Positions 4,717 through 25,606 of a stretch of DNA of 29,011 bases are shown here, one piece after another. This DNA is from a virus, in IMG/VR virus record IMGVR_UViG_3300042923_001240, positions 1-29,011 of that record; one strand, written 5' to 3'. How positions within the stretch are numbered: position 1 is the first letter of the stretch; every line of letters starts with the position of its first letter. The translations under genes and the position numbers were made by a program. The notes below the pieces were generated by a model. That model saw nothing but the letters and a program-made list of their open reading frames with translations. It did no database searches and had not been told where the DNA came from.

Positions 4717-4728
4717 TACTATATTGTT
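4717..4728 (-). promoter_or_regulatory. Candidate late promoter AACA-N6-TA for the capsid gene
   Basis: The minus strand reads AACAATATAGTA. The predicted leader to the ATG at 4638 is about 79 bases. It holds a small inverted repeat (TTAAACCT-GATT-AGGTTAA region, 4692-4712) and an A/T-rich stretch before the ribosome binding site. Confidence 0.5.
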
Positions 4729-9672: not shown

Positions 9673-9701
9673 TATTCATACCCCCTTATCATTCTCACTT
9701 T

Positions 9702-9714
9702 TATAATATATAAC
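9702..9714 (-). promoter_or_regulatory. Early-type promoter box GTTATATATTATA (unit 9672-9092)
   Basis: An exact 13-base box on the minus strand is followed by AAAGTGAGAAT, giving the extended consensus GTTATATATTATANNNRTGA. It lies 13 bases after the glucosaminidase terminator and 30 bases before the first ATG. Confidence 0.8.
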
Positions 9715-9726
9715 CAAAAAGAAATA

Positions 9727-9762
9727 AATATGCAGTATAGCATTTTTGCTATACTGCATATT
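9727..9762 (-). terminator. Terminator after the glucosaminidase gene
   Basis: A 15-bp perfect stem (AATATGCAGTATAGC) with a six-base loop is followed on the minus strand by TTATTTCTTTTT. The stop codon ends three bases before it. Confidence 0.88.
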
Positions 9763-9764
9763 AT

Positions 9765-10187
9765 TCATTCACCAAAACAATCAGTGTATATTTCTCTACA
9801 ACGTCTGATATAAGTTTCTAAGGAATCGCTAAAATATTTACCTTTCTTTAGAGCAATAATATACTCTTCTAGTGTTGTAGCTTGGTCTATCCCATCTGAT
9901 ACATAATATCCTAGATACCTACCAAAATAATCTCCATATTCTTCAAATGTATTAAAATTCATATAATAGTAAGGACCATCTGGTTGTGGTGTATCGTTTT
10001 CTTCTTCTTGAGTTAGACCGCCAAGATTATGGTTAGATGCCTGAAGCTCTGAAGTGAACAAACCGGTTTCATGTGCAAATTGACAATAAATCCATCTCCA
10101 ATTTATATTGCATAGACCTTTCTTTTTAGAAGCAGATTCTGCTGCAATACATGCTATACCAGCGAAATATTCGTTAATAGTTTCCAT
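9765..10187 (-). CDS. Glucosaminidase-type peptidoglycan hydrolase (140 aa)
   Basis: The protein fits the GH73/FlgJ-like glucosaminidase fold in reduced size. RWIYCQFAHETGLFTSEL (about 31-48) holds the catalytic Glu40 in the HETG motif. NHNLGGLTQ (52-60) corresponds to the NNLFGIK-type loop, and FEEYGDYFGRYLGYY to the F-x-S/T-x-E-E-Y-x-x-Y/H region, followed by a closing helix (ETYIRRCREIY). It cleaves beta-1,4 links at GlcNAc in peptidoglycan. There is no signal peptide and no cell-wall binding domain, so it needs a holin or works as a virion-associated or cytoplasmic-pool lysin. The start ATG has AGGTG eight bases upstream. It is a single-gene unit bounded by terminators on both sides. Confidence 0.72.
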   Translation of the reverse strand: METINEYFAGIACIAAESASKKKGLCNINWRWIYCQFAHETGLFTSELQASNHNLGGLTQEEENDTPQPDGPYYYMNFNTFEEYGDYFGRYLGYYVSDGIDQATTLEEYIIALKKGKYFSDSLETYIRRCREIYTDCFGE

Positions 10188-10248
10188 ATCTATTCACCTA
10201 CTTTAATATATTAAGGCTTATTTACCTTATACTAAAGTTATAAAAAAT

Positions 10249-10269
10249 AAAGGAGAATCACTCCCCTTT
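10249..10269 (-). terminator. Terminator enclosing the ankyrin-gene stop codon
   Basis: On the minus strand AAAGGGGAG pairs with CTCCTTT (two-base bulge) around a loop that contains the TGA stop (10258-10260). It is followed by ATTTTTTATAA. Confidence 0.65.
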
Positions 10270-10956
10270 ATTTTCCTTTAATTTAGAATCCAATTTAATT
10301 ATTAGATCTGCAAGTATATCTGTAAAGATTTGAGTATATTGATTTGACATCGTTCTTATAACAGAATAATCATTTACAGATATATCTGCACCTAAATCTA
10401 TTATAATCTTTGTCAATTCATCATCGCATTCAGACTCACAAAGATATACTACTCTTTCAATCAAATATTTTTTCTTACTTTCAATAAAATAATTCACATC
10501 GATTATTTTGTTTTCAAGTAAGAATTTTATACTTTCTATATCTCTTCCAGATCCGAAACCTGTTTCTAATAATTTTACAATTTCTTCTTTTGGAAGTTCC
10601 ACATTTCTTTCTTGTACTAAGTAAGTTGCTATATCAATTTTACCATTACGTATAGCATGATATAGCATTAATTCTTTTGTTATAGGAGTTTTATTAAGTC
10701 TATCTATGAACTTATAATCTACAAATCTTTTAAAGAAATCCAAAGTGCAATTATCACCACTCATAGCCTCTGCAAGACCTCTAGAATCGGAAACATATTT
10801 AATGACTTTCTCTACATCATCTAGCCTATTGTCATTCAAAAAAACGGCTATAGTATTATAAAATGTATAAATATTTTCTCCACTAATACTAAGCTTATTT
10901 GTTAATATTTTCTTAGATATAACTTCATAATCTGCTTTTGGTGCTAATGCAAACAT
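10258..10956 (-). CDS. Ankyrin-repeat-like protein (232 aa)
   Basis: Several segments fit the ankyrin pattern of paired helices and an LL/LGAD turn: LMLYHAIRNGKIDIATYLVQ, ESIKFLLENKIIDVNYF and ELTKIIIDLGADISVNDYS. The N-terminal ~70 residues look helical and repeat-like too but are more diverged. Such proteins bind other proteins; the target here is unknown. The ATG (10954-10956) has AAGGAG upstream and lies 20 bases after the stop of the 182-aa paralogue, so both form one early-type unit starting at 11563-11575. The stop codon is inside the terminator loop. Ankyrin proteins are uncommon in phages and may point to host-factor interference. Confidence 0.65.
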   Translation of the reverse strand: MFALAPKADYEVISKKILTNKLSISGENIYTFYNTIAVFLNDNRLDDVEKVIKYVSDSRGLAEAMSGDNCTLDFFKRFVDYKFIDRLNKTPITKELMLYHAIRNGKIDIATYLVQERNVELPKEEIVKLLETGFGSGRDIESIKFLLENKIIDVNYFIESKKKYLIERVVYLCESECDDELTKIIIDLGADISVNDYSVIRTMSNQYTQIFTDILADLIIKLDSKLKENKGE

Positions 10957-10975
10957 ATCTAGAACTCCTTTGTTT

Positions 10976-11524
10976 TTATTTAAACCCTATGATTGTGTCG
11001 TTTAATTTAAGTTCAGTTAACCTCTCGAAAGATGGAGTATTGATAACAACTTCGGCATTCCAAATAGAAATGCCACGTTCAGTTTTAGGTTTAACAAAGA
11101 AATTTTTATCTATATAGACATCACCTTCTTTAGTTAATAACATTCTATCTCCATCTATAAATTTAAGTCTGAACTCTGATCCTTTTTCATAGCTGCTATA
11201 TGTCACTTTAGATTTATCCCCATCAATAGTAACAAATTCAAATTCTTTTAAAATAGTTTCACAAGACCAAAAATACAAAACAGCGTCGATTTCCATTCTA
11301 GAGCCATCATTATTTATTCCTGTTTCTGTATTATAAATTGAAATGGCTTCTTTTATATCCTTTACATCAATAATTTCTATACTGCCTTTTATGCCTCTCG
11401 TTTCTTGTTCTGCTTGAAATTTTGTAAGGAATAAACATGGAATATTTCTTTCTTTATTGTATGCAAAAGATACAATTTTATTTCCATCCTTATCAGCATT
11501 AATTATTTTTACAATATATAACAT
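10976..11524 (-). CDS. Paralogue A of a four-gene phage family, with extra N-terminal domain (182 aa)
   Basis: The start ATG (11522-11524) has AGGAGG at 11532-11537. A longer open frame upstream runs through the promoter and is not coding. Residues 1-76 form an extra domain (MLYIVKIINADKDGNKIVSF). Residues 77-182 match paralogue B almost end to end: MEIDAVLYF versus MKIEATLYF, KEGDVYIDKNFFVKP versus KEGDVYIDQPFIVKP, and VVINTPSFERL versus VVINTPSIERI. No start signal precedes Met77, so it is one polypeptide and not two genes. The family is unknown to me and no catalytic motif is visible. The first gene of an early-type unit with the ankyrin gene. Confidence 0.8.
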   Translation of the reverse strand: MLYIVKIINADKDGNKIVSFAYNKERNIPCLFLTKFQAEQETRGIKGSIEIIDVKDIKEAISIYNTETGINNDGSRMEIDAVLYFWSCETILKEFEFVTIDGDKSKVTYSSYEKGSEFRLKFIDGDRMLLTKEGDVYIDKNFFVKPKTERGISIWNAEVVINTPSFERLTELKLNDTIIGFK

Positions 11525-11562
11525 TTTAATTCCTCCTAAATTATTTCTTTTGTTCTCACTTT

Positions 11563-11575
11563 TATAATATATAAC
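11563..11575 (-). promoter_or_regulatory. Early-type promoter box (unit 11524-10258)
   Basis: An exact GTTATATATTATA on the minus strand is followed by AAAGTGAGAAC. It is 39 bases before the ATG and 28 bases after the preceding terminator. The leader is nearly the same as that at 16084-16135. Confidence 0.82.
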
Positions 11576-11602
11576 TAAATATCTCTTAGAATGCAAAAAA
11601 GA

Positions 11603-11629
11603 AAAAGGTAAGCGTAATGCTTACCTTTT
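11603..11629 (-). terminator. Terminator after paralogue B
   Basis: An 11-bp stem (AAAAGGTAAGC) with a GTAAT loop is followed on the minus strand by TCTTTTTTGC. The stop codon (11628-11630) overlaps the base of the stem. The same stem sequence recurs at 12411-12435. Confidence 0.85.
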
Positions 11630-11978
11630 ATATTTTATTAGGAATTCCATCTATCTTATTAATAGTAATAGCTACCGATTTGTTTAAAATAGCATGTACT
11701 ATTCTTTCTATAGATGGAGTATTAATAACAACATCGGCTCTCCATTTAAAATTTCCCTGACTGGCTTCTGGTTTTACAATAAATGGTTGATCAATATATA
11801 CATCGCCCTCTTTTGCCAAATGTATTAGATCCCCTTCTGTAAATGAGATTCCAAATTCGGATTCCTTTTTGTAGTCTTTATATACTATTTTAGGTTTGTT
11901 GCCATTTGGTGTGATAAAATCAAATTCATTAAAAATATCCTTATCAGATTTAAAATATAGCGTAGCTTCAATTTTCAT
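11628..11978 (-). CDS. Paralogue B of the four-gene family (116 aa)
   Basis: The ATG at 11976-11978 has AGGAGG nine bases upstream. This is the minimal form of the family: a strand MKIEATLYFKSDKDIFNEFD, a middle KEGDVYIDQPFIVKP, and the hallmark RADVVINTPSIERI followed by a last helix and strand. It is clearly homologous to residues 77-182 of paralogue A and shares the hallmark with C and D. It lies 25 bases after paralogue C, so C and B form one unit. The small alpha/beta size suggests a binding protein; no function can be read from the sequence. Confidence 0.8.
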   Translation of the reverse strand: MKIEATLYFKSDKDIFNEFDFITPNGNKPKIVYKDYKKESEFGISFTEGDLIHLAKEGDVYIDQPFIVKPEASQGNFKWRADVVINTPSIERIVHAILNKSVAITINKIDGIPNKI

Positions 11979-12003
11979 TATAAATTCCTCCTAAATTATT
12001 CAA

Positions 12004-12345
12004 TTAAACCAACTCTAATTTATTGATGACTACATTTGAGATCCCATGCTGAGTTGATATAAACTCGCGCAATTCTTCTATTGATGGAGTGCTAACACTG
12101 AGAGTTCCAATCCATTGTTCACTTTGCTCATCATAAAAGAATTGAATTGGTGTGTCGCAATAGATAGTATCCGTTAATACTAATCGACTAGTATTACGGA
12201 AGTAAACATTACAAAGTTCTTCCGAATAATTATCTAGATGAAGACCAACTGTTGTAGAAAGAATATCACCATTGGCATTCTTGAGTGGATATACATCAAA
12301 TACTAAAGATGGGTTTGGTGTTTTAACGTGGCATAAAATATTCAT
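12004..12345 (-). CDS. Paralogue C of the four-gene family (113 aa)
   Basis: The start ATG at 12343-12345 has AAGGAGG at 12355-12361. The open frame continues upstream through the promoter and is not used. The hallmark here is LSVSTPSIEELREFI, aligned with VVINTPSIERI of B and IVINAPSIEKLKEFI of D. The upstream DTIYCDTPIQFFYD corresponds to the GDVYIDQPFIVKP region. The N-terminus (MNILCHVKTPNPSLVFDVYP) is more diverged. It is the first gene of a unit with B, driven by the early-type box at 12388-12400. Function unknown. Confidence 0.78.
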   Translation of the reverse strand: MNILCHVKTPNPSLVFDVYPLKNANGDILSTTVGLHLDNYSEELCNVYFRNTSRLVLTDTIYCDTPIQFFYDEQSEQWIGTLSVSTPSIEELREFISTQHGISNVVINKLELV

Positions 12346-12387
12346 AATTAAATTCCTCCTTATGATGCAATTTATATTGCTCATATT

Positions 12388-12400
12388 TATAATATATAAC
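12388..12400 (-). promoter_or_regulatory. Early-type promoter box (unit 12345-11628)
   Basis: An exact GTTATATATTATA on the minus strand is followed by AATATGAGCAA. It lies 11 bases downstream of terminator 12411-12435 and 43 bases before the ATG. Confidence 0.82.
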
Positions 12401-12410
12401 TCAAAAAATA

Positions 12411-12435
12411 AAAGGTAAGCATTATGCTTACCTTT
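12411..12435 (-). terminator. Terminator after paralogue D
   Basis: An 11-bp stem AAAGGTAAGCA with a three-base loop is followed on the minus strand by TATTTTTTG. It shares the stem core with the terminator of paralogue B. Confidence 0.85.
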
Positions 12436-12440
12436 GTAAT

Positions 12441-12770
12441 TTATATAGTTGGCAAATTTGGATATGGGGCTAGCCAAATCTCAATATCTGTTTCTATGAT
12501 AAATTCTTTTAATTTTTCAATTGATGGAGCATTTATAACAATAGTACCACTGAAACAAAGTCTAGTATAATCATAATTTAAAACAAAATCTTCATCGACA
12601 AATATATCATCTCTAAAATTAAGTTTGGAGCGCTTCTCAATTATCACGCTTATAAAATGACATCCAGTTTCTAAAGTATAATCTTGATCTAATATAGTTA
12701 TACCTTCAGTATTCAAAGTTTTTAATAGTATTTCTGGATCTTCTTCCATTAATATACATTTAATCTTCAT
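12441..12770 (-). CDS. Paralogue D of the four-gene family (109 aa)
   Basis: The ATG at 12768-12770 has GGAGG at 12779-12783; an upstream in-frame TTG lies on that site and is rejected. Hallmark: GTIVINAPSIEKLKEFI near residues 77-93, preceded by DDIFVDEDFVLNY, the counterpart of GDVYIDQPFIVKP in B. The N-terminus MKIKCILMEEDPEILLKTLN is close in pattern to the start of B. It lies 18 bases after the HNH endonuclease gene and is probably co-transcribed with it. Function unknown. Confidence 0.78.
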   Translation of the reverse strand: MKIKCILMEEDPEILLKTLNTEGITILDQDYTLETGCHFISVIIEKRSKLNFRDDIFVDEDFVLNYDYTRLCFSGTIVINAPSIEKLKEFIIETDIEIWLAPYPNLPTI

Positions 12771-12788
12771 TATTAATTCCTCCAAAAT

Positions 12789-13613
12789 TTATTTAGCAAC
12801 ATAAATCCTTTCCACAATCTGTATTGTATTGCCGTCTTTAAATAAAGCCTGTTCAATTGGGTAATTCCATTTAAACAATCTAGAGTGTAATTTTGCAAAT
12901 GACATATCGGTTAATCTAGCCCATTGCGCAATTGTGAGATTTATATCATTATATTCAATAAATACATTATTGCTACGATTATTCTGTTGAGTAAAATCGT
13001 CTGCCCATCTGCAATTATCAGGACAATAATTTCCATTGACATCTTTGCGGTCTATAGTTAGACCTTCAGGAGGAAACCCCATATCTCTAGCAAATGTAGT
13101 AACGTCATGCCACTCTTTACATACTGATATGCCTCTTGCTCCGTAATACTTATAAGATTTAGAAGTTTCTATATAACATCTTTCCATCATTTTACCCCAT
13201 ATATTATAAATAGAAGTTCCAGCTAATCCATGCTTTGTATTAATCTCTTTATTCAGGCATGTACAAGATGCAGTTCTTCCATTCTTCAAAGATCCTCCTA
13301 ATACAGATACTGTCTCTCCGCAATCGCACTGACAAATCCATTTGCGATTACATGTTGTTTTATTTAGATCTTCTTTAATAACAACTAACCTACCAAATCT
13401 TAATCCTTTTAAATTATCTTTCTTCTCGTGACCACATGATATAGATTTTCCTCTTCTTAAACTATTAGAAGATACTGTTCTTTTTTCTCCACATTCACAT
13501 TGACAAATCCACTTAGACGCTATTCCATTTCCAGATGGAGCAGTTTTATCTAGTTCTATAACAGTCCATTCGCCGAATATTTGCCCGCTTAAATCAATAC
13601 TTTTATTACCCAT
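12789..13613 (-). CDS. HNH homing endonuclease with two zinc-finger repeats (274 aa)
   Basis: Two Cys-rich repeats, KWICQCECGEKRTVSSNSLRR (35-55, with Cys60 and His62) and KWICQCDCGETVSVLGGSLK (91-110, with Cys117 and Cys119), are DNA-binding zinc modules. They are followed by YNIWGKMMERCY and the HNH core: LTIDRKDVNGNYCPDNCRWA (185-204), then QQNNRSNN. This is the layout of phage HNH homing endonucleases, which make a site-specific break and spread by repair. A C-terminal helical segment (228-260, TIAQWARLTDMSFAKLHSRL) may be an additional DNA-reading helix. It directly follows the RNA polymerase gene, a usual target region. The start ATG (13611-13613) has a GGAGG upstream. No promoter of its own is clear, so read-through from the RNA polymerase unit is likely. 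Confidence 0.9.
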   Translation of the reverse strand: MGNKSIDLSGQIFGEWTVIELDKTAPSGNGIASKWICQCECGEKRTVSSNSLRRGKSISCGHEKKDNLKGLRFGRLVVIKEDLNKTTCNRKWICQCDCGETVSVLGGSLKNGRTASCTCLNKEINTKHGLAGTSIYNIWGKMMERCYIETSKSYKYYGARGISVCKEWHDVTTFARDMGFPPEGLTIDRKDVNGNYCPDNCRWADDFTQQNNRSNNVFIEYNDINLTIAQWARLTDMSFAKLHSRLFKWNYPIEQALFKDGNTIQIVERIYVAK

Positions 13614-13640
13614 TTATAAAATCCTCCATAATAATAAAAT

Positions 13641-13667
13641 AAAGAGAAGAGCATTGCTCTTCTCTTT
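13641..13667 (-). terminator. Terminator between RNA polymerase and HNH genes
   Basis: A 12-bp stem (AAAGAGAAGAGC) with a three-base loop is followed on the minus strand by ATTTTATTATTAT. It is about 40 bases after the RNA polymerase stop. Confidence 0.8.
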
Positions 13668-13706
13668 TATAACTTCATTATTATGATATATGCTTAAAAA
13701 TTATAA

Positions 13707-15344
13707 TTAAAATACAGGCTTAGTCAATCGTTTTTCGTCTTCTGGTAATATCATAGTAAGATTATACATGGCTTGCATACCTTCATTAGTGGTTTCCATA
13801 ATATTTTGTCCACCTAGAGATATATAATGAGCCTTAGAATTTAGCTGTTTTTTAAGTTCCTCGTTTGCTTCTATACTAAAAACAGACTTACAGCTTACTT
13901 GGTCTCCGTCATAATCTCCGCCTATAGAACCTAAATAAGCATTACATATTTGAGCAGTATCTATAAATAAATTACTTGTATTCTTTCCTATATCTTCTTG
14001 CCTAATCTTAGGATAATGTGGATAATAAACATTATTTATAACCATAGGTTCAGTTAATTTAGTAGAGCTTACTCGTATTTTTGTTGGGAATTGATTATAG
14101 TAACTATCTATAGGATATCTGGTGATAAGAACTGTTTTATCTTTAGTAACCTCTACAGCTGCTATATAAATAAGATCGCACCAAGTTAAATCTCTATCCA
14201 TTATAGGAAATTTAAGAATATCATTTCCATCCTGATACTGTTTATCTGTAATTCCTCTACCTTTAAACCTTAAAGAAACCTTTTTCTTTTCATCTTCTAA
14301 TGGAAGAATAATTGGGCGAAATCTATTAGAATACCCATGCATAAATCTATCTAGCTCTTCTTTTAATACCGTATCGGAAAAAGCTATTTGATAATCTTTC
14401 ATTTTATATTGTTTTACTGTTCCATCTAAAGTAGTTACAGTTCTTATAGGATCGTTTGCAAATTCGTTTTCAAAGAATCTTCTTAAATAGAATATGATAT
14501 ACGGGAAAAAGTTAGCTACAATAGATGCTAATGGTACCGCTGTGTGATCAAGATCTGTAAGCATATCTTCCATATGCTCAACTTTAAGGTTAGGTGCAGA
14601 TAGTACCAAGCGAGATGAATAATCTGTTGTTTTACTAAGATTAGATCTTCTAAGTGTACCTCTCTTGCCTGGTATATTAGGTTCTGATGTAAACCAATCA
14701 TATATGCTAACCAAAATTTCTTGGATTCTCCCTCTTACAGAATTTGCAAGAGTTAATCCATATTCAGAAGATTCTTTTAAAGATCTAGTTGCAATAATAA
14801 GAGAGTTGTATAATTTGTTTACATCTCCTATTCCAACATATCCACCATCACTATTAATATCTCTATAATACGCTGGAATAACGATCATGTTTTCTATAAA
14901 AATATAATCTTTATATTTTTCTAAAAATTTAATATTAGTATCTCGTCTAGAAGATCCTGTTGATTTGATTTTAATTTTGTCTATATTCTTTTTTAAGAAC
15001 GACAAACCAGTTTCCCCATCTTCATCTTCTACCAATTCTCCGGCAGAATTTATCTTGAAATAACTAGTACCATAAACACATGCTTTAATTTTATTATCCA
15101 TCTTAGACCATACTTTATAAAACAATGGGTGCATAAATGGATCTTTTCCTAAAGCTATGTATGCAAACGTATTTGCTCTATCATCTTTAGATATACCAAA
15201 GATTTCATTAGACAATAAACCATCTGTAGTAGGTGAGTTATTCTTAGAAAAAAAGATAGGATTTGTTATTTCCGAAAGTCTATTTACTTTAATAAAATTA
15301 TTTATTTTTAACGGTTTTAATGAAAAATATCGTTGAGGTGCCAT
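13707..15344 (-). CDS. Phage RNA polymerase beta-prime subunit, N-terminal half with the catalytic motif (545 aa)
   Basis: GGDYDGDQV at about residues 475-483 is the catalytic Mg-binding loop of beta-prime (NADFDGDQM in bacteria), with all three Asp residues (477, 479, 481). GKRGTLRRSNLSKTTDYSSR (226-245) with LVLSAPNL matches the conserved KQGRFRQNLLGKRVDYSGR segment. The N-terminus (GLLSNEIFG, HPLFYKVW) matches the start of beta-prime, without its zinc cysteines. The protein stops 62 residues after the catalytic loop, so bridge helix and trigger loop must be in another gene, as in phiKZ- and AR9-type phages. The ATG 15342-15344 follows an AAGGAG box. A candidate late promoter at 15364-15375 and the surrounding virion genes favour the packaged (virion) enzyme over the non-virion one. 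Confidence 0.93.
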   Translation of the reverse strand: MAPQRYFSLKPLKINNFIKVNRLSEITNPIFFSKNNSPTTDGLLSNEIFGISKDDRANTFAYIALGKDPFMHPLFYKVWSKMDNKIKACVYGTSYFKINSAGELVEDEDGETGLSFLKKNIDKIKIKSTGSSRRDTNIKFLEKYKDYIFIENMIVIPAYYRDINSDGGYVGIGDVNKLYNSLIIATRSLKESSEYGLTLANSVRGRIQEILVSIYDWFTSEPNIPGKRGTLRRSNLSKTTDYSSRLVLSAPNLKVEHMEDMLTDLDHTAVPLASIVANFFPYIIFYLRRFFENEFANDPIRTVTTLDGTVKQYKMKDYQIAFSDTVLKEELDRFMHGYSNRFRPIILPLEDEKKKVSLRFKGRGITDKQYQDGNDILKFPIMDRDLTWCDLIYIAAVEVTKDKTVLITRYPIDSYYNQFPTKIRVSSTKLTEPMVINNVYYPHYPKIRQEDIGKNTSNLFIDTAQICNAYLGSIGGDYDGDQVSCKSVFSIEANEELKKQLNSKAHYISLGGQNIMETTNEGMQAMYNLTMILPEDEKRLTKPVF

Positions 15345-15363
15345 TTGTATCTCTCCTTTCAAT

Positions 15364-15375
15364 TATCTCAATGTT
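15364..15375 (-). promoter_or_regulatory. Candidate late promoter AACA-N6-TA for the RNA polymerase gene
   Basis: The minus strand reads AACATTGAGATA. The predicted leader is only about 20 bases but still contains the GAAAGGAG box. Confidence 0.5.
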
Positions 15376-15387
15376 TTCTTAGAAAAA

Positions 15388-15411
15388 ATAAAAGAGGTTA
15401 CTCTCTTTTAT
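15388..15411 (-). terminator. Terminator enclosing the stop of the 228-aa gene
   Basis: A nine-bp stem (ATAAAAGAG and complement) has a six-base loop that contains the TAA stop (15398-15400). It is followed on the minus strand by TTTTTTCT. Confidence 0.8.
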
Positions 15412-16084
15412 TTTTCATAAACTTTTTAAATTGTTTTTTAGGCAAAAGAATTTCATATATATGCTCTTCATGACTGACATGCAATCCAAAATCAATCATA
15501 GTATCAATAACTAGACTAACTGGCTGATTTTTATATGGTGTAGTAAAATAATCAGCATTTTCAGTAATTAGATCATGTAGCTTCATATTCTCTATTTTTT
15601 CAATAGATAGATCTTCTCCAAATACTCCTTTATAAAATTTAACAGGAATGTCATCGTCCCATTTTATCATTTTATCTGTTATCATTTTCGTTAAACATTT
15701 TGCTACATCTTTGTCTATATACTCACACCAAGTAGTGATTGGTCTAGAAGCCCATGTCCCTATACCTTCTTTAATATCAGATATAGTTGATAGGTATTGG
15801 ACTGCTTCGTAAAATCCAAAATAAATAGATTGTGCTATTAATAGATCATGTTTTTTTATCCTAGAAATATATTTCTTTAAAATTTCCAAAGACTTATATT
15901 CTAAAATACGCATACCAAATATTTCATCATGTATATCGCAAAGAATATCAAGAATATCGATACGTTCCTCTTCTATTGATTTCTTAATTTCTTCAATATA
16001 TTCGTCAAAAAATTCACACTCCCCAGTCCACCTGATAGTATCTCTTTCATTAATTATAAAAGTTTTAAATTCATTCAATTCCAT
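15398..16084 (-). CDS. Unknown early-type protein (228 aa)
   Basis: The ATG (16082-16084) has AGGAGG at 16092-16097. The protein is helical and rich in Ile, Lys, Asp and Glu, starts MELNEFKTFIINERDTIRWT, and ends in a basic tail (KKQFKKFMKNKRE). Repeated helix pairs suggest an all-alpha, possibly repeat-type fold, but I see no clear ankyrin pattern or catalytic residues. It is a one-gene cassette: early-type promoter box at 16123-16135, stop codon in the terminator loop, inserted between the baseplate genes and the RNA polymerase gene. Its leader is nearly the same as that of paralogue A. Function unknown. Confidence 0.78.
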   Translation of the reverse strand: MELNEFKTFIINERDTIRWTGECEFFDEYIEEIKKSIEEERIDILDILCDIHDEIFGMRILEYKSLEILKKYISRIKKHDLLIAQSIYFGFYEAVQYLSTISDIKEGIGTWASRPITTWCEYIDKDVAKCLTKMITDKMIKWDDDIPVKFYKGVFGEDLSIEKIENMKLHDLITENADYFTTPYKNQPVSLVIDTMIDFGLHVSHEEHIYEILLPKKQFKKFMKNKRE

Positions 16085-16122
16085 TTTAATTCCTCCTAAA
16101 GATTTTTATATATTCTCACGTA

Positions 16123-16135
16123 TATAATATATAAC
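16123..16135 (-). promoter_or_regulatory. Early-type promoter box for the 228-aa gene
   Basis: An exact GTTATATATTATA on the minus strand is followed by TACGTGAGAAT. It is 39 bases before the ATG and 26 bases after terminator 16161-16190. Confidence 0.82.
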
Positions 16136-16160
16136 TATACATCTTTAGAATTACAAAAAT

Positions 16161-16190
16161 AAAGAGGTATGGCTTAAGCCATACCTCTTT
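16161..16190 (-). terminator. Terminator enclosing the stop of the 105-aa gene
   Basis: A 30-base perfect palindrome (AAAGAGGTATGGCTT and complement) has the TAA stop (16174-16176) at its centre. It is followed on the minus strand by ATTTTTGTAA. Confidence 0.85.
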
Positions 16191-16491
16191 TATCTATAAA
16201 CCGTATAACTATATTATTATCATTACATATCGTAACCTCAACAACAAATTTATGCGCGAAGAAATCGACTCTAATGTTATTATACAGCGATTCCATATAT
16301 GATATATCGCAATTCTTACTTGGACGTAGCAGGTAAAAACACCCATCTTCATCTTCTTTCAGATCTATATTAATATCACTGAAATTTGTAGATAATAGAC
16401 TATGCAGTACCAGATGCTCGTCGAAATATTTATGCATTTCTTTTTCTTGATCTTTATGTTTTATCAATTGCGAAAACTGTTCTAGATCCAT
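16174..16491 (-). CDS. Unknown small protein, last gene of the baseplate unit (105 aa)
   Basis: The ATG at 16489-16491 has GGGGGTG at 16501-16507, which overlaps the end of the -1 frame extension of the gene before it. The protein starts MDLEQFSQLIKHKDQEKEMH and ends in a beta-rich half (FVVEVTICNDNNIVIRFIDK). No known motif. Its tight packing behind the gp26-like gene and the terminator at its end make it the last gene of the late baseplate unit; it may be a baseplate chaperone or minor part, but this is only positional inference. Confidence 0.75.
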   Translation of the reverse strand: MDLEQFSQLIKHKDQEKEMHKYFDEHLVLHSLLSTNFSDINIDLKEDEDGCFYLLRPSKNCDISYMESLYNNIRVDFFAHKFVVEVTICNDNNIVIRFIDKRGMA

Positions 16492-16497
16492 TTTACA

Positions 16498-16707
16498 TTA
16501 CACCCCCATAGCATCTGCTACTGCATTGTTTTGTTGCTCGGCTTTCCCAGCATCAGTTTTGGCTTCTTGCACCGCCGAATAGTATAAATAATGCAAGAAG
16601 CCCATCGGTTGTCTTAGGGCTTCTACAAAACTAAGTCTATTTCTATAGTACCTAGTTAGCATATTTACTCTATCGAGGAATTGCCTATAGCTACCAATTG
16701 ATGCCGT
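16498..16707 (-). CDS. -1 frame extension of the gp26-like baseplate gene
   Basis: In the -1 frame relative to the baseplate gene an open stretch continues from the slippery heptamer T_TTT_TTA (16707-16713) to a TAA at 16498. It adds 69 residues after Leu530: TASIGSYRQFLDRVNMLTRY, then a segment with FVEALRQPMGFLHYLYYSAV and a polar Ala/Gln tail. The frame is open upstream of the heptamer as well, as needed for slippage. An ATG just past the zero-frame stop (in VNMLTRY) could start a separate 54-aa protein, but it has no ribosome binding site, which favours frameshifting. A one-base sequencing error in the run of seven T would give the same picture. Confidence 0.62.
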   Translation of the reverse strand, partial: TASIGSYRQFLDRVNMLTRYYRNRLSFVEALRQPMGFLHYLYYSAVQEAKTDAGKAEQQNNAVADAMGV

Positions 16708-18296: not shown

Positions 18297-18310
18297 TTAA
18301 TTTCCCTCCA

Positions 18311-18682
18311 TTATAATGATTCTAACGTTGTTGTTTCTTTATTAAAGGTTAATCTATATACGACATCGTCTATTACAATAGATATTCTAATAGTTTTATC
18401 CGATTCAGATACACTAACCTCAGCCGCTATTAATTCTGGTAGATATGTGGCTATTTGATCTTCATAGTCACTTTTAAGTTGTTCCAGATCATCACTAGAT
18501 GAATAGCGGTATCTAGATATAATTCCAAGACCCATATCTGGTCTTGTTGGTATTGTCCCCTTTTCTAATAATGCTAACTCTATAAGCTTAATACAAGTAG
18601 CATCTTGATCTTCGAAGACTTTAGGTCTATTGAATTCGTTTAGTGACATACTGTACTCTCTTAAAGTGACATTATCACTCAT
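18311..18682 (-). CDS. gp25-like baseplate wedge protein (123 aa)
   Basis: The size and sequence pattern fit the gp25/GpW lysozyme-like family (Pfam GPW_gp25). A helix IKLIELALLEKGTIPTRPDM is followed by GLGIISRYRYSSSDDLEQL, then helix YEDQIATYLPELIAAEVSV and alternating strands ending IVIDDVVYRLTFN. In T4 this protein nucleates sheath assembly on the baseplate wedge, so the phage has a contractile tail. The ATG (18680-18682) is preceded by AAAGGGAGA. It is the first gene of the late minus-strand unit, with a candidate late promoter at 18712-18723. Confidence 0.82.
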   Translation of the reverse strand: MSDNVTLREYSMSLNEFNRPKVFEDQDATCIKLIELALLEKGTIPTRPDMGLGIISRYRYSSSDDLEQLKSDYEDQIATYLPELIAAEVSVSESDKTIRISIVIDDVVYRLTFNKETTTLESL

Positions 18683-18711
18683 TTAACCACATCTCCCTTT
18701 ATAAATTTTAC

Positions 18712-18723
18712 TATTAAGTTGTT
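18712..18723 (-). promoter_or_regulatory. Candidate late promoter AACA-N6-TA, leftward
   Basis: The minus strand reads AACAACTTAATA. The leader to the gp25-like ATG is about 30 bases. It is paired with a rightward copy at 18759-18770 in the divergent region. Confidence 0.5.
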
Positions 18724-18758
18724 AGATTTAGGTATTTACACGCTTTAAATATAATGAA

Positions 18759-18770
18759 AACATATCAGTA
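18759..18770 (+). promoter_or_regulatory. Candidate late promoter AACA-N6-TA, rightward
   Basis: The plus strand reads AACATATCAGTA. The predicted leader is about 23 bases and contains AAAAGGAGG. A TATAAT hexamer at 18750-18755 lacks a convincing -35 partner. Confidence 0.5.
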
Positions 18771-18792
18771 AGTTAAAAGGAGGACGGTCATT

Positions 18793-20997
18793 ATGAAAAC
18801 ATACAAATGCCCTTATTGTAATTATAGAGGTTCTAAGGAAGATTTGATATCTCATATAGAAGAAGAGCACGATGAAATGATACCAGAAAATTTTACTGCG
18901 TCTAGAGTAGTATTTAATTTAGTAAATAAAAAGGATCATGGAGTATGTGTTGTTTGTAAAAGAGAAACAGAATGGAACGAGAATGCCACTAAATATAATA
19001 GACTGTGTGGTAGAAAAGCTTGTGCTGATGCTTTGAGAGAAGCCTATAAAAAGAACATGCTCAAAGTATATAATAAAACTACACTTCTTGACGATGCAGA
19101 ACATCAGGAGAAGATGCTAGCTAATAGGGGAATATCTGGAAAATATAAGTTTGATGATGGAGGATATCATATTTTCACAGGAAGCTACGAAAAAAAGGCT
19201 TTAGAGTTTATAGATAAAATATTAGGATTCAAAGCAACTGATTTGCTTTGCCCTGGTCCTGTATTCGAGTATGAGTATGAAGGAAAAAAACTTAAATGGA
19301 TTACAGATATGCTGCTTATCCCATTTAATCTAATTATTGAAGTAAAAGATGGTGGGAGTAATCCTAATAATCGTACTATGACTTCATATAGAGAAAAGCA
19401 AGTAGCTAAAGAGCAAATGATTACATCTCTTGGCAAATTTAATTATCTTAGATTGACTGACAATAACTTTGCGCAGCTATTGGGAACAATTGCAGAGCTC
19501 AAAGCTCAAATGATTGACGATAGCGAAGATAATAAGAAAGTAGTTATCAATATAAATGAAGAAGTGGAAGCTTTGAACGAGGAGTCTTCAAAAGATATAA
19601 CAAAGTTTAAAGCTATGATTCTAAAAAAAGTTCATGCTAATTCTAAATTTAAAAATTTTATAAAAGGCAAATCAAAGGATGATATAAAAAAAATAAACGA
19701 TAAGATATACAACTCATCTGCTAAAATATTACGAGAAGTTATTAGATTGACATTTAATACAAAACATCTTTCGGAAAAATTATTCTGGGCTGTTGCCATA
19801 GGATATGTATTATCAATGTTTGGTATAATAGCTTCGTCTGCCATAATGTTTGGGACCGCTATTGGGGTAGATTATGCGGTAGATGCTCGTCATAATAGAA
19901 AGAAAAATGAATCTACTGAATTAGAATCGGAAATCGTAGATGAAATGTCTATAAGTGTTCCATTAAATAAAGATCATATCCAAAAAGGAAATAAGTCTTT
20001 ACCTTCTTTTAAAAAAGTTTCTATAACTGATAGTGAGATTAATAAATATAAACAAGATATGAAATCATTATCTCATATAAGAACAGAAGACGGATATAAA
20101 GGAACTATATTCTTAGATAAAAACAATCCAGTTTGCTATGTAAATGTAAACTCTAATAATGGAATGATACAGGCACTGGAGATATCTAAAGACTATCAAG
20201 GATATGGATTATCATCACAATTATTGAAATATGCTGTATCTACACTAAAAGCAACATCATTAACAGTAAATAAAAAAAATGAAGTTGCGATAAACGTGTA
20301 TAAAAAGCAAGGCTTTAAACAAGTTAAATCTACCGATAATATGATAACTATGTCTATAGATGAAAGTATGGGTCTAGCTGGAATTGGCGGAATGCCCGCA
20401 CCATCTAATCAGTTCATTACTCAATTTGGTCCTAGATCTACTTTTTCAGACGATACAGTAGAAGGCTATGCCATTCATAACGATATCATTACAGATAAGA
20501 TACTATTAGTAGATAAGAATGGTAATCTTGCAGTTAAAGAATCTTCCTTCTTAGAGGGAAGAAAAATAAGAATATTTAAATATATTGGAGAAAATATAGA
20601 TGGATATCACAAGATATTAAAATCTGCAAAGAAAAATAAAAAAGCTCATAGAGAATATTTATATGAAGCACTAACTGGAAAAAGGTTATTATCAGACGAT
20701 CAGATAATCTGCGACGAATACTTTGAAGAAGTCTCTCCTGTTAAAATCTTTTCCGAATATAATTCCACTGCTCAAACAATTGTTGATCAGTATAAAGAGA
20801 TAATTGGGGAAGATGTGATTAGATTTCCATTAATGAATAAGCATTCTATATTAGAAGCTTCTAGGATTACAAGGGGTAATATTCATATTAATATATTTGA
20901 AAATATGAATGGATACTTTGCAGAAAATGCTATAACTCGCCAAAGGACTGCATATTATAATAATATAAAAGATATTCAAATTGAGGTGATATTGTAA
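18793..20997 (+). CDS. Zinc finger / PD-(D/E)XK nuclease / membrane / GNAT multidomain protein (734 aa)
   Basis: Domains in order. A C2H2 finger (Cys6, Cys9, His21, His26). A four-Cys module (Cys52, Cys55, Cys72, Cys77). A PD-(D/E)XK nuclease core with Glu133 in TGSYEKKALEFID, Asp172 in LKWITDMLLIP and the Glu183-x-Lys185 pair in NLIIEVKDGG. A hydrophobic segment at about 330-362. A GNAT acetyltransferase domain at about 425-515 with the acetyl-CoA loop DYQGYGLSSQLL and the final motif AINVYKKQGF. A C-terminal region of about 200 residues without known motifs. ALNEES at about 260-265 recurs in the next protein. AAGGAGG supports the start. The size, late-type promoter and overlap with the next virion-like gene suggest a particle protein, perhaps ejected into the cell. 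Confidence 0.75.
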   Translation: MKTYKCPYCNYRGSKEDLISHIEEEHDEMIPENFTASRVVFNLVNKKDHGVCVVCKRETEWNENATKYNRLCGRKACADALREAYKKNMLKVYNKTTLLDDAEHQEKMLANRGISGKYKFDDGGYHIFTGSYEKKALEFIDKILGFKATDLLCPGPVFEYEYEGKKLKWITDMLLIPFNLIIEVKDGGSNPNNRTMTSYREKQVAKEQMITSLGKFNYLRLTDNNFAQLLGTIAELKAQMIDDSEDNKKVVININEEVEALNEESSKDITKFKAMILKKVHANSKFKNFIKGKSKDDIKKINDKIYNSSAKILREVIRLTFNTKHLSEKLFWAVAIGYVLSMFGIIASSAIMFGTAIGVDYAVDARHNRKKNESTELESEIVDEMSISVPLNKDHIQKGNKSLPSFKKVSITDSEINKYKQDMKSLSHIRTEDGYKGTIFLDKNNPVCYVNVNSNNGMIQALEISKDYQGYGLSSQLLKYAVSTLKATSLTVNKKNEVAINVYKKQGFKQVKSTDNMITMSIDESMGLAGIGGMPAPSNQFITQFGPRSTFSDDTVEGYAIHNDIITDKILLVDKNGNLAVKESSFLEGRKIRIFKYIGENIDGYHKILKSAKKNKKAHREYLYEALTGKRLLSDDQIICDEYFEEVSPVKIFSEYNSTAQTIVDQYKEIIGEDVIRFPLMNKHSILEASRITRGNIHINIFENMNGYFAENAITRQRTAYYNNIKDIQIEVIL

Positions 20998-23225
20998 TGA
21001 TAGGTATCGACGATGAGGTCATAACGACTGGATTGGATGATAGAGAAATAAAAGATTGGAGATTGTCTCATAATATGATTCTTCTCCATAGCAGCTATCC
21101 AACTGAAAAAAAATTAAGAGACGATTGGGAAAAATTTAATAATATGACCATTCAAGATAGGATTGAAAGTGATTGGAAATCTATAGATTTATTTGGATTT
21201 AGTAATATTGATAGATATGAAACAATGTTATCCGAATTCCTTAAAAACGATATTCCAGATGAATTATATGATAATTTGTATGTTCCTATGAAGGAGTCAT
21301 ATGATCAAGCCGATGAATGGAATAAGAATAATTTAAATAAAGTTATATCTAAAGCAAGCTCTTTAAAAGATCTTGAGAAGCAATGGGGTGCATACAACAG
21401 CATCCCAGTTTCTGATAGGTATGAAGTTGATGATGCGTCTATCGAATTATTTGATATGGACAACACGCAACATTATTTAGCTCAAAGAAAAGAATTCCTT
21501 AAAAACGATATAAACCATTCAGAGCCAGCTATACAATATATTCCATCTAGAGAAGAAGCTCTACGTCTATATGCATCTAAAATAGATATTGTAGGAGCAG
21601 CAAAAACTTGCGCTAGAATTAAAGAATCTACTTCAAATAATATTTCTGATATTATATTCGAAAGTGCCGAAAAGAATATTAGTGATAAAATAAATATGGA
21701 TAATATGATGGCTCTATCTATTACACCATTCTATTCTCCATATGAAATGGAAAAATTGGGCATATCTACTATAGATACTGGGATATATAGCGACGAGCCA
21801 GATACGTCTCTTATAGGATCTATTACAACCAAACAATGGTTTCAAGAATATAAGAATAGGTTTAATGGATTTAATGATGAATCTTATGTGTCTAAATCCA
21901 CATGGGTAGAAACTGTAGAAAAGCTGTATTCTGATTATGATGAAATAAAAGAATCTGGAGACATGGTTGTTATAAATAGTAGAAAACAATCCATATTAGA
22001 CCTTGGGTGGAATCCAGAAATAGAGTTTAATGAAGCAACAAAAACGTATGCTAATAATCGTATAAATTCTATAGTAGAAGATATGTATTCTAGGTATAGA
22101 ATTATAGATGTAGAAGAAAGTGTCGCTCTTAATGAAGAAAGTGCTAATAGTGATTATGTTGGAGCGTTAAGAGAGGTAGCAGTTCGCCCGCTTTACATAG
22201 TATTTTTTAATTCAAAAACTGTGTTTAATAAAGTTATAAGAACGGTTACTAATAGCGTATATAGCCACGTTTCTATATCTTTTGATCCATCTCTAAAAAC
22301 AATGTATAGTTTTGATGCAAAGAATGGTGGCTTCTCCCCAGAATATATGAAAGATTATATCAACAGTGGAGAAGTAAAAGCTATTCAAGTATTTTGCACT
22401 TTTATAGATGCAGCAAAATATGATGTGTTGCAATCTAAGATAAAAGAATATAGTAAAAATAAAAAGAACCTGGGATATTCTTTTATCAATCTAGTAACAA
22501 TACCATTCAAAATAAACTATATAGATAAAACTAAAATGGTTTGCTCCCAATTTGTAGATAGTATGCTTAAATTAGCAGATTTGGATATTACTAGTATTGG
22601 ATCTAATATGATATCTCCTGGTAAGCTTAATAAAAGTATTAAAAAATATAAGGGAGATATATATAAAATATATACTGGCTCTCCAGATAAATATAGTGCA
22701 GACAAGATAGCTAATTTTATAGATAAACTTGCTAGCTCTACAGTCGAAGTAGAATCAAATATACTAAAACCATTTTTATCTATTTCTAGCATAAAAGAAG
22801 CTAAGGAGTTTCCGGTTCAATTTACTGATGATGGAGATCTTCTTATATCTAAAGGTAAAGATATAGATTTTGAAGGAGAATATTCTAGATGTCATATAGC
22901 ATTAGAGCAATACGATAAAGTGAATAATATAGAAGCTATGAAGTATTGTATTTATAAGCTGTGGTATATGAATATTGTCTTGGAAGAAAGAATCCATGAA
23001 GATAAATCTGATAGGGATAAAATAAAGGAATACCATAAAGCTAGAGCTAAAATAATTAATGATATTAAAACTTATATGCATAAGATACAAAAAGTAGATA
23101 AGAAATTTGATATTATTAAAGAATATAATGAAAGTCCATTTAGTAGCGATTCTATTAAAATACGAAGATCAACTCTCCTTTATAGTATAGACTTATTTAA
23201 AAGAATTATTGGTATTAAGAAATAG
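20997..23225 (+). CDS. Large protein with permuted papain-like (NlpC/P60-type) hydrolase domain (742 aa)
   Basis: The ATG overlaps the previous stop by one base, so the two genes are translationally coupled. Residues 36-86 and 122-172 are a diverged tandem repeat (each ending EFLKNDI or the like). A central domain (about 385-565) has the YiiX-like permuted papain order: His424 in VYSHVSISFD, then Cys516 in KMVCSQFVDSML. Such enzymes cut amide bonds in peptidoglycan or lipids. The C-terminus (about 620-742) is a helical bundle rich in Lys and Glu. LNEES at 379-383 is shared with the previous protein and might be a maturation cut. Most likely a virion-associated, cell-wall-acting protein; the hydrolase call is by motif order only. 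Confidence 0.68.
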   Translation: MIGIDDEVITTGLDDREIKDWRLSHNMILLHSSYPTEKKLRDDWEKFNNMTIQDRIESDWKSIDLFGFSNIDRYETMLSEFLKNDIPDELYDNLYVPMKESYDQADEWNKNNLNKVISKASSLKDLEKQWGAYNSIPVSDRYEVDDASIELFDMDNTQHYLAQRKEFLKNDINHSEPAIQYIPSREEALRLYASKIDIVGAAKTCARIKESTSNNISDIIFESAEKNISDKINMDNMMALSITPFYSPYEMEKLGISTIDTGIYSDEPDTSLIGSITTKQWFQEYKNRFNGFNDESYVSKSTWVETVEKLYSDYDEIKESGDMVVINSRKQSILDLGWNPEIEFNEATKTYANNRINSIVEDMYSRYRIIDVEESVALNEESANSDYVGALREVAVRPLYIVFFNSKTVFNKVIRTVTNSVYSHVSISFDPSLKTMYSFDAKNGGFSPEYMKDYINSGEVKAIQVFCTFIDAAKYDVLQSKIKEYSKNKKNLGYSFINLVTIPFKINYIDKTKMVCSQFVDSMLKLADLDITSIGSNMISPGKLNKSIKKYKGDIYKIYTGSPDKYSADKIANFIDKLASSTVEVESNILKPFLSISSIKEAKEFPVQFTDDGDLLISKGKDIDFEGEYSRCHIALEQYDKVNNIEAMKYCIYKLWYMNIVLEERIHEDKSDRDKIKEYHKARAKIINDIKTYMHKIQKVDKKFDIIKEYNESPFSSDSIKIRRSTLLYSIDLFKRIIGIKK

Positions 23226-23227
23226 AT

Positions 23228-23255
23228 AGATGGGATAGCACATGCTATCCCATCT
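23228..23255 (+). terminator. Terminator after the papain-like protein gene
   Basis: A 13-bp stem (AGATGGGATAGCA and complement) separated by two bases is followed by TATTTGTT. It starts two bases after the stop codon. Confidence 0.8.
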
Positions 23256-23264
23256 TATTTGTTG

Positions 23265-23277
23265 GTTATATATTATA
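23265..23277 (+). promoter_or_regulatory. Early-type promoter box for the 126-aa gene
   Basis: An exact GTTATATATTATA on the plus strand is followed by ATAATGATATT. It is ten bases after the preceding terminator and 30 bases before the GTG start. Confidence 0.82.
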
Positions 23278-23306
23278 ATAATGATATTATATGGGGAGTT
23301 GTTAGT

Positions 23307-23687
23307 GTGAAGAAAATTATTATAACTCGAGAAAATGTAGACAATGTTATGGGTTATATCAATAGCGCGTTTGAAGGGAAGGGATTTAAAATCCATCTTG
23401 GGTACATATCAGATATAGATAATCCGACAGAAACATTTTTTACTACTATTCCGTATTATGACAATGACTCTATGTATCCTCCGCAAAAAGTTCAACTTAA
23501 GAAATCTACATGTAAATACGGCATCGTAGATTTCAGAACATATGGAGATTGCTTTCCTGTAGAAGAGGATAAAAATATTATTGTTATAGCTGATAATGGA
23601 AATGTATATTTTGTAACTTTAAACGATGAATTAAGACGGAAAGAAAATATCCAAAGCACATATGAATTTAAACTAATGAAGACTTAA
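23307..23687 (+). CDS. Unknown early-type protein (126 aa)
   Basis: I place the start at GTG 23307, with GGGGAG at 23293-23298 eight bases upstream. The frame is open further upstream to a TTG, but that part is the promoter. The product begins with M(V)KKIIITRENVDNVMGYIN, is alpha/beta, and has a beta-rich second half ending VYFVTLNDELRRKENIQ. No motif that I know. It is a one-gene cassette with its own early box and terminator, like the small cassettes of the minus-strand block. Confidence 0.75.
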   Translation: MKKIIITRENVDNVMGYINSAFEGKGFKIHLGYISDIDNPTETFFTTIPYYDNDSMYPPQKVQLKKSTCKYGIVDFRTYGDCFPVEEDKNIIVIADNGNVYFVTLNDELRRKENIQSTYEFKLMKT

Positions 23688-23689
23688 CA

Positions 23690-23711
23690 AAGGGGCACAA
23701 GTGCCCCTTTA
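23690..23711 (+). terminator. Hairpin after the 126-aa gene
   Basis: A ten-bp GC-rich stem (AAAGGGGCAC and complement) lies directly after the stop. The following TAGATTACT is poor in T, so termination may be partial, allowing read-through into the 301-aa gene. Confidence 0.65.
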
Positions 23712-23764
23712 GATTACTAAAAGATTTAAGACAATAAAATAAACAAAAAATAGGGGGATTTATA

Positions 23765-24670
23765 ATGAGTGCTAAAATTGATATATTTGTAGGGGCAAAA
23801 TTCTATAAATATAAAGAAGATGGAAGCCTGGAAACGATTAGAATTGTTAGGGCTAAAAGTGAAAATAATTTTATTGTAATTAAAGACGATGATTTTAGTA
23901 TAAAGTACACTAAAACGTCAGAGCAGTTACATGAGTATACTTTACTACGTTCCGACGCTTTGTATACTTTCAATATTGTAATAAATGCCAAAGATGATGC
24001 AATACTTTACGATATACTTGTAACCATGAGCAGGAAGCAAGATAAAAATAAACCATATGCAGTGTGTCGTCAAATGATGCAAAATTTATTTTCACAAATG
24101 ATCAAAGCTGATGTTACAGTACTTGGAAATTGCGTATCTCAAGATAGCTGCCCTCCAGATGTAGAGTTTAAAATAAATCTTATGTGCAATAAATTAGTAA
24201 GAACATTTTCAGTAAACGGATATCTAAATGATACTCCTGAAGTTATTATGAAATTGGCTTCGAAGATTATAACTCAATCTGATAAAATTCTCGAGGCTCA
24301 ATATAATGAATTACATAAAAGATACAATGGGTTATGCACTTCTGTTAAACAATTATTAGAAGAAAACTCATTTTGGGATGAAGTAAATAAAGGTTTAAAA
24401 GTAATGAAACTAAATGATAAAATAGAAAATTGCTCACTTAATATCGAGCAGCTAACTTATCTACAACAAGAAATTTCATATCTGATGGATAAAGTTCATG
24501 TAATAGAATATGACCATGATATTGATTTCAGTCAAATAAAGTCAGATTACATGCTTATTCGAGATATAGAAAATAAACTCTATATGATAAGTTATTTGCG
24601 TGGTAGTTTTATAAAACAAGAACATTTGAGTGAAGAAGAATTGGCGAAATTTGACTCTATAAAAATATAA
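23765..24670 (+). CDS. Unknown phage protein (301 aa)
   Basis: The ATG has GGGGG at 23754-23758. The first ~60 residues are beta-rich (KIDIFVGAKFYKYKEDGSLE), and the rest is mainly helical with coiled-coil-like segments (about 165-280) ending SEEELAKFDSIKI. There are five Cys in the middle but no regular zinc pattern. No clear promoter of either type lies in the 50-base gap before it; expression may come by read-through of the weak hairpin at 23690-23711. Function unknown. Confidence 0.75.
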   Translation: MSAKIDIFVGAKFYKYKEDGSLETIRIVRAKSENNFIVIKDDDFSIKYTKTSEQLHEYTLLRSDALYTFNIVINAKDDAILYDILVTMSRKQDKNKPYAVCRQMMQNLFSQMIKADVTVLGNCVSQDSCPPDVEFKINLMCNKLVRTFSVNGYLNDTPEVIMKLASKIITQSDKILEAQYNELHKRYNGLCTSVKQLLEENSFWDEVNKGLKVMKLNDKIENCSLNIEQLTYLQQEISYLMDKVHVIEYDHDIDFSQIKSDYMLIRDIENKLYMISYLRGSFIKQEHLSEEELAKFDSIKI

Positions 24671-24673
24671 TTA

Positions 24674-24686
24674 GTTATATATTATA
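24674..24686 (+). promoter_or_regulatory. Early-type promoter box for the 259-aa gene
   Basis: An exact GTTATATATTATA on the plus strand is followed by GAGATGAATTA. It is three bases after the stop of the 301-aa gene and 71 bases before the next ATG, the longest leader of this class. Confidence 0.82.
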
Positions 24687-24702
24687 GAGATGAATTAATA
24701 TA

Positions 24703-24731
24703 GCCGGTGACTGCAATGCGCGGGTGACGGC
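24703..24731 (+). promoter_or_regulatory. GC-rich structured leader element
   Basis: In the leader of the 259-aa gene 21 of 29 bases are G or C, in a region that is otherwise strongly AT-rich. It contains the direct repeat GGTGAC (24706-24711 and 24723-24728), with outer GCCG/CGGC and inner GC/GC pairing. Likely a folded RNA element or a protein-binding site; no known riboswitch is recognised. Confidence 0.5.
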
Positions 24732-24757
24732 AAATAAAATTAAAAGGGGTAATCAGA

Positions 24758-25544: not shown

Positions 25545-25580
25545 TATATACAGGAGTAGATAATTCTACTCCTGTATATA
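25545..25580 (+). terminator. Strong terminator after the 259-aa gene
   Basis: A 16-bp perfect stem (TATATACAGGAGTAGA and complement) with a TAAT loop is followed by TTATTTTTTATTT. Its right arm with the following bases reads GTATATATTATTTT, close to the early-type box, so it may also serve as the promoter of the next unit. Confidence 0.9.
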
Positions 25581-25606
25581 TTATTTTTTATTTGGAGGTT
25601 ATACAA

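Follow-up and report, generated by a model that had tools for sequence, protein, structure and literature searches.

The window analysed here is the whole 29,011-nucleotide stretch of the IMG/VR virus record IMGVR_UViG_3300042923_001240 (positions 1 to 29,011), a virus contig of unstated completeness. Within it we identified six copies of a promoter-like box, GTTATATATTATA-N3-RTGA, each lying in front of a gene and most of them just behind an intrinsic terminator. Sequence comparison indicates that these are very probably early promoters, used by a jumbo phage that is a relative of Bacillus phage AR9 and of PBS1 and has its own multisubunit RNA polymerases. The boxes, with the predicted transcription start and first gene of each, and the terminators preceding them are as follows.

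9695..9714, minus strand: candidate early promoter box 1 (predicted start G 9696; 39-codon open reading frame (ORF), start codon 9672)
11556..11575, minus strand: candidate early promoter box 2 (predicted start 11557; gene 10976-11524)
12381..12400, minus strand: candidate early promoter box 3 (predicted start 12382; gene 12004-12345)
16116..16135, minus strand: candidate early promoter box 4 (predicted start 16117; gene 15398-16084)
23265..23284, plus strand: candidate early promoter box 5 (predicted start 23283; gene 23307-23687)
24674..24693, plus strand: candidate early promoter box 6 (predicted start 24692; gene 24758-25537)
9727..9762, minus strand: intrinsic terminator upstream of box 1
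11603..11629, minus strand: intrinsic terminator upstream of box 2
12411..12435, minus strand: intrinsic terminator upstream of box 3
16161..16190, minus strand: intrinsic terminator upstream of box 4
23228..23255, plus strand: intrinsic terminator upstream of box 5

The full pattern occurs exactly six times, with its 13-mer at 9702, 11563, 12388 and 16123 on the minus strand and at 23265 and 24674 on the plus strand, and there is no further exact copy of GTTATATATTATA on the record, as the original prediction had reported. RTGA stands three bases past the box in all six copies, and all six are in the sense direction relative to the next gene, again in agreement with that prediction. All six are intergenic. 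Its distances required small corrections: the 30-72 bases given between box and start codon became 29-71 on recomputation, one base having been counted differently, and the 10-28 bases given between terminator and box became 9-27 (12, 27, 10, 25 and 9 bases for boxes 1 to 5), whereas the claim that a terminator stem precedes five of the six boxes was confirmed. The sixth box (24674) starts 3 bases past the preceding stop codon. The description of the downstream genes as small is loose, the first genes behind boxes 1-6 comprising 39, 182, 113, 228, 126 and 259 codons. Genes were called with a simple ORF caller; neither the 39-codon ORF (9553-9672) nor a stretch around 16.5 kb was picked up by it.

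When sequences were simulated from the intergenic composition of the window (300 for each of Markov orders 1-3), TTATATATTATANNNRTGA appeared on average 0.00-0.02 times and at most once, compared with six occurrences in the window, where the reversed pattern is absent. The bare 13-mer with two mismatches allowed showed no enrichment (12 sites versus 9.0 expected, a count of 12 being reached in 21 of 100 shuffles); the signal thus consists of the exact box together with the fixed downstream TGA. The core TATATATTAT is followed by A in 6/6 boxes and preceded by AGT or GGT, and for four of the six the RNA is predicted to start with GAGA or GAGC. A seventh TATATATTAT, at 25575-25584, overlaps a terminator stem and has no TGA. 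For an element of a known kind, the box sequence is unusually uniform.

The early promoters of AR9 were determined by differential RNA-seq as AAATATATATTAT-(6N)-G+1 (PMC5312081). When the 34 early promoters annotated on the AR9 record were aligned, bases 6, 7 and 8 past TATATATTAT were T in 25, G in 31 and A in 24 of the 34. The order in the window boxes is TATATATTAT, A, NNN, R, T, G, A, with G at the AR9 +1 position in 6/6, so that RTGA falls on T(-1) G(+1) A(+2) of AR9 and its G is therefore the predicted start site. Beyond the common core and the equal spacing of T-1, G+1 and A+2, the two elements share an intergenic, sense location ahead of non-virion genes. They differ in the bases before the core, which are AAA in AR9 but AGT or GGT in the window, and in that the AR9 copies vary whereas the six window copies are uniform. 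The A that follows the core in all window boxes and the predicted GAGA or GAGC start of the RNA in four of them also set the window apart from AR9. A matrix built from the 34 annotated AR9 promoters only placed the six boxes within the top seven sites of the window. The seventh hit, AAGCATATATCATAATAATGA at 13675-13695 (minus strand), which is also present in G001 (a close relative described below), probably does not function as a promoter, since it is directly followed by an intrinsic terminator (13641-13667).

Early promoters of virion RNA polymerases (vRNAPs) have been defined more generally as AT-rich, highly conserved motifs of about 10 bases, centred near -10 and recurring ahead of presumed early operons (PMC7598289). 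The window boxes likewise form a conserved, AT-rich motif that recurs upstream of genes, and at the sequence level they have a conserved start base 6 nt past the core (G in 6/6). In Yersinia phage phiR1-37 (AJ972879.2), whose genome contains uracil (PMC7598289), the promoter is A-dU-rich and 56 copies were confirmed through RNA-seq (PMC4848604). We found TATATTAT-N5-TGA 31 times in that phage, compared with 2 occurrences of the reversed pattern. The original prediction had compared the box with phiKZ. The phiKZ early promoter that it gave, TATATTAC, ends in C. The phiKZ motif is AT-rich, near -10 and read by a virion polymerase, as is predicted for the window box, but the late promoter of phiKZ is TATG (PMC7598289), unlike the AACA-N6-T[A/G] element found in the window. 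The early-promoter assignment itself passes the available sequence tests, and AR9 provides the better fit.

The motif is widespread among relatives. G001, an IMG/VR contig of 87,773 bases, encodes an RNA polymerase beta' subunit 96% identical to that of the window and contains 13 TTATATATTATA sites, 13/13 of them intergenic and sense; its three other copies of TATATATTAT are located in coding regions (two) and within the counterpart of the window's terminator (one). An equal frequency inside coding regions or in antisense, which the original prediction had named as evidence to the contrary, was thus seen neither in the window nor in G001; G003, which is more distant, gave a less clear-cut result. 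In the five window boxes with orthologues in G001, 15/15 box positions are retained in each and 2 or 4 of the 4 spacer positions, although this conservation says little by itself because the flanks are alike too (24-38 of 39 upstream positions). Upstream of called genes, TATATTAT-Nk-TG peaks at k=5 in 10 of 11 genomes, with sense counts of 19 in AR9, 30 in S6, 34 in phiR1-37, 17 in LPJP1, 12 in G001, 5 in G003, 6 in the window, 27 in G005, 24 in G011 and 8 in G022. Other values of k gave at most 7 sense sites in these ten genomes, and the antisense counts at k=5 were 0-8; sense and antisense counts overlap in divergent regions. A beta' scan with a six-protein alignment yielded 315 relatives; 80 of them were retained, and 50 of these 80 were searched whole. 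TATATTATN5TGA was present anywhere in 48 of these 50 IMG/VR relatives and exceeded its own reversed control in 46, totalling 504 sites versus 58 for the reversed pattern.

We then compared gene classes across the window and six relatives, assigning each gene to the virion or non-virion class by its AR9 homologue and the AR9 annotation rather than by expression. The early motif lies ahead of 13/43 non-virion and 0/73 virion genes (Fisher p 7e-7); the comparison was restricted to genes with a match at E 1e-6 and an upstream noncoding stretch of 30 bases or more, several of the genomes are related, and one of the 73 virion genes is from the window. Two non-virion rows (G011, 987-1604 and 137131-138033) were dropped as they match an AR9 homing endonuclease in the g270 intron, which changed the early count from 13/45 to 13/43 and the late count, given below, from 15/45 to 14/43. 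Homologues of subunits of the non-virion RNA polymerase (nvRNAP) carry the early motif in 8 of 12 cases (g154 3/4, g226 2/2, g270 3/4, g089 0/2).

The polymerase gene of the window, the major head gene and the candidate late promoters are located as follows.

13707..15344, minus strand: RNA polymerase beta' N-terminal subunit, virion type (PHROG 2986, E 9e-84; best AR9 match g145)
2809..4638, minus strand: major head protein (PHROG 20655, E 2e-17)
15364..15375, minus strand: candidate late promoter AACATTGAGATA of the virion beta' gene (starts 31 bases upstream of the start codon; same in G001)
4717..4728, minus strand: candidate late promoter AACAATATAGTA of the major head gene (starts 90 bases upstream)
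18712..18723, minus strand: candidate late promoter AACAACTTAATA of gene 18311-18682 (starts 41 bases upstream)
18759..18770, plus strand: candidate late promoter AACATATCAGTA of gene 18793-20997 (starts 34 bases upstream)

The beta' subunit is of the jumbo-phage kind (PHROG 2986). As a query it matched 281 records in the phage collection; the top matches, with 33-36% identity, come from phages of Listeria, Bacillus and Staphylococcus. Its AR9 counterpart, g145, is annotated as the virion RNA polymerase beta' N-terminus. The major head protein, tried as a bridge to named phages, gave no match. Homologues of both virion and non-virion polymerase subunits are present in G001 and G003 (the E-values of one of the subunit searches refer to a four-protein set), and the window, a fragment, has the virion beta' gene only. 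Box 4 lies upstream of a 228-codon gene, and next comes the virion beta' gene. The latter is preceded by a separate candidate late element, in keeping with its product being a virion subunit. The gene for the sigma-like subunit (AR9 gp226) has the early motif upstream in six of eight genomes (G001, G002, G005, G022, S6 and phiR1-37). The G001 gene is a putative gp226 homologue, assigned from a gene order in common with AR9 and from matches of its protein (phiR1-37, E 2e-11; G005, 41% identity; G005 versus AR9, E 7e-12).

A separate observation concerns the gp226-like gene of G011 (G011:C1:25-2421), which is split into 25-777 and 1873-2421, with a homologue of the AR9 HNH homing endonuclease g271 (987-1604) in between; the interruption is perhaps an intron.

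Late promoters of AR9 have the form AACA-(6N)-T[A/G] (PMC5312081), and an element identical in sequence and spacing to this nvRNAP promoter occurs in the window ahead of the genes for the major head protein and virion beta' and ahead of the two divergent genes at 18.7 kb. Two further matches lie near 16.5 kb, in the stretch missed by the gene caller. In relatives, the element precedes portal, sheath, protease and other virion genes. In the window alone the signal is weak (6 sense, 3 antisense; 4 at the next best spacing), but AACA-Nk-T[A/G] peaks at k=6 in 11/11 genomes scanned, and the element lies ahead of 41/73 virion compared with 14/43 non-virion genes (p 0.02). Among 3,328 tetramer-spacing combinations, AACA-N6 ranks 1 in AR9, phiR1-37, LPJP1, G002 and G011, 2 in S6 and G005, 3 in G022, 4 in G001 and 5 in G003 (10 genomes, the window being unranked); some of the combinations above it are based on only a handful of counts, and others are variants that overlap it, such as ACAT at five. 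For phiR1-37, the RNA-seq study describes new start sites without new conserved upstream sequences (PMC4848604), and the AR9 study states that the phiR1-37 study gave no late consensus (PMC5312081). Judged mostly from the listings, searches of an open-access library gave no later report of such a motif.

The AR9 nvRNAP requires uracil in the template strand (-11/-10), and V206 of gp226 is central to this (PMC9209446). At the position aligned to V206, G001 and G011 have V, G002 and G022 have I, and G005 has T, which is not decisive; identity to AR9 is about 18-19% for G001 and G002. A thymidylate-synthase-family gene was found in 3 of 20 records (G011, G014 and G022), and the AR9 glycosylase inhibitor matched only AR9 itself among the same number of records. 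Several of the records in both searches are fragments, and phiR1-37 and S6 are also without an inhibitor match, so neither search decides the DNA base. It is possible, though we lean slightly to the doubtful side, that the complete AR9 two-polymerase code (early TATATTAT-N5-TG, late AACA-N6-T[A/G]) goes back to the ancestor of a large clade of uncultured jumbo phages including that of the window, rather than a peculiarity of phages with uracil in their DNA. If so, the late code persists even in the thymidylate-synthase relatives G011 and G022, and therefore either uracil or another modified base would be present there, or the late polymerase would have been retuned to template-strand thymine.

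Could the boxes instead be host promoters of the sigma-70/sigma-A type, with the TATTAT in the box as the -10 hexamer? The resemblance of TATTAT to TATAAT and a spacing to the G that suits a -10 element speak for this. However, over 14 boxes (six in the window and eight further ones in G001) the best TTGACA match at a spacing of 16-18 averages 2.7/6, compared with 2.6 at random positions, and none reaches 5; an extended -10 TG is found in 0/14; sigma-70-like sites between 9000 and 26000 show no enrichment (100 found versus 103 expected); and this phage lineage has its own polymerases. Conservation of the box also spans 12-13 bases, more than sigma-A needs. We therefore regard host promoters as very unlikely.

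Many near-identical copies would also be expected of operators or other protein-binding sites, serving a repressor, replication or partition, whose position in front of genes is fortuitous. Yet the boxes are not palindromic, they keep a single orientation relative to the next gene in the window and a fixed spacing to a downstream TG that fits the AR9 start site, and the motif is absent before all 73 virion-class genes, which makes such sites highly improbable. The position of the boxes shortly upstream of ribosome-binding sites would suit an RNA element in the 5' leader of read-through transcripts, acting on translation or stability; however, five of the six boxes follow an intrinsic terminator by 9-27 bases, and its counterpart in AR9 has been mapped as a promoter (PMC5312081). 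A leader element that is not a promoter seems to us the least credible of these explanations.

Several observations weigh against early promoters of the AR9 type. The boxes score 11.7-18.2 with the AR9 matrix, and the best shuffled site averaged 13.5 and reached 21.4 in 100 shuffles; the case therefore rests on exact recurrence, spacing and position. In G003, 5/6 TTATATATTATA sites are intergenic and sense, the remaining one being coding-antisense, and one of two TATATATTATN5TGA sites lies inside a called gene. G002 has no TATATATTAT, no peak at k=5 (1 sense, 2 antisense) and only a few weak matrix hits. In two phages of Fusobacterium that encode a related beta', the site counts were 1 and 0, with 1 and 1 for the controls. 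Not every site counts as independent, since equal scores suggest that several of the 50 contigs are near-duplicates and since G001 closely resembles the window. The only recognised polymerase subunit gene in the window is that of beta', the other subunits being known from relatives. The sigma-like gene of LPJP1 is without the pattern, and that of AR9 itself, although it has an annotated early promoter, deviates from it (no TG). Finally, the early motif is missing before 30/43 non-virion genes, including 4/12 nvRNAP homologues; some of these genes may lie inside operons.

We nevertheless favour early promoters, given the sequence, position and direction of the boxes, their +1 alignment with mapped AR9 promoters and the partition of gene classes by homology. 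The phage would package a multisubunit vRNAP in its virion and inject it along with the DNA. This polymerase would recognise TTATATATTATA, centred near -12, begin the RNA at the G of RTGA and transcribe small islands of early genes among the late structural genes, mostly insulated by a terminator directly upstream. The early products, which in relatives include the nvRNAP and its sigma-like subunit, would in turn switch on late genes through AACA-N6-T[A/G], among them those for the head protein and for the virion polymerase of the next particle. We infer the binding by vRNAP, the start site and the timing, and with them the packaged polymerase that the original prediction had proposed as the reader of the boxes.

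Elements of this kind are already known; the present analysis adds how broadly they occur, how they align with the AR9 start site and that a candidate late element accompanies them. The comparison provides predictions at the level of start sites for an uncultured phage lineage and makes it possible to sort likely early from likely late genes by sequence, which could help to find early host-takeover genes among unknown ORFs. With the late motif in relatives, the age and spread of template-strand uracil-dependent promoter reading become testable.

No RNA family was found in the window at the gathering score. The predicted leader behind box 6 (24692-24757, plus strand) contains a G+C-rich stem that is nearly identical in G001, with a folding z of -1.4, which is not significant. 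The gene that follows (24758-25537) has a relative from G001 only, in a scan limited to close relatives. Between 10976 and 12770 (minus strand), four adjacent small genes share a C-terminal N/S-T/A-P-S-I/F-E pattern (for example, VVINTPSIER) and, judged by eye, form a local family of paralogues. An HNH endonuclease gene (12789-13613, minus strand; PHROG 374, E 9e-78) lies right behind the virion beta' gene; the corresponding place in G001 is too small for this gene and the next small one, and the AR9 beta' gene contains homing endonucleases. The 734-codon gene at 18793-20997 (plus strand) encodes an endonuclease part similar to AR9 g233 (PHROG 15137) fused to a GNAT acetyltransferase domain.

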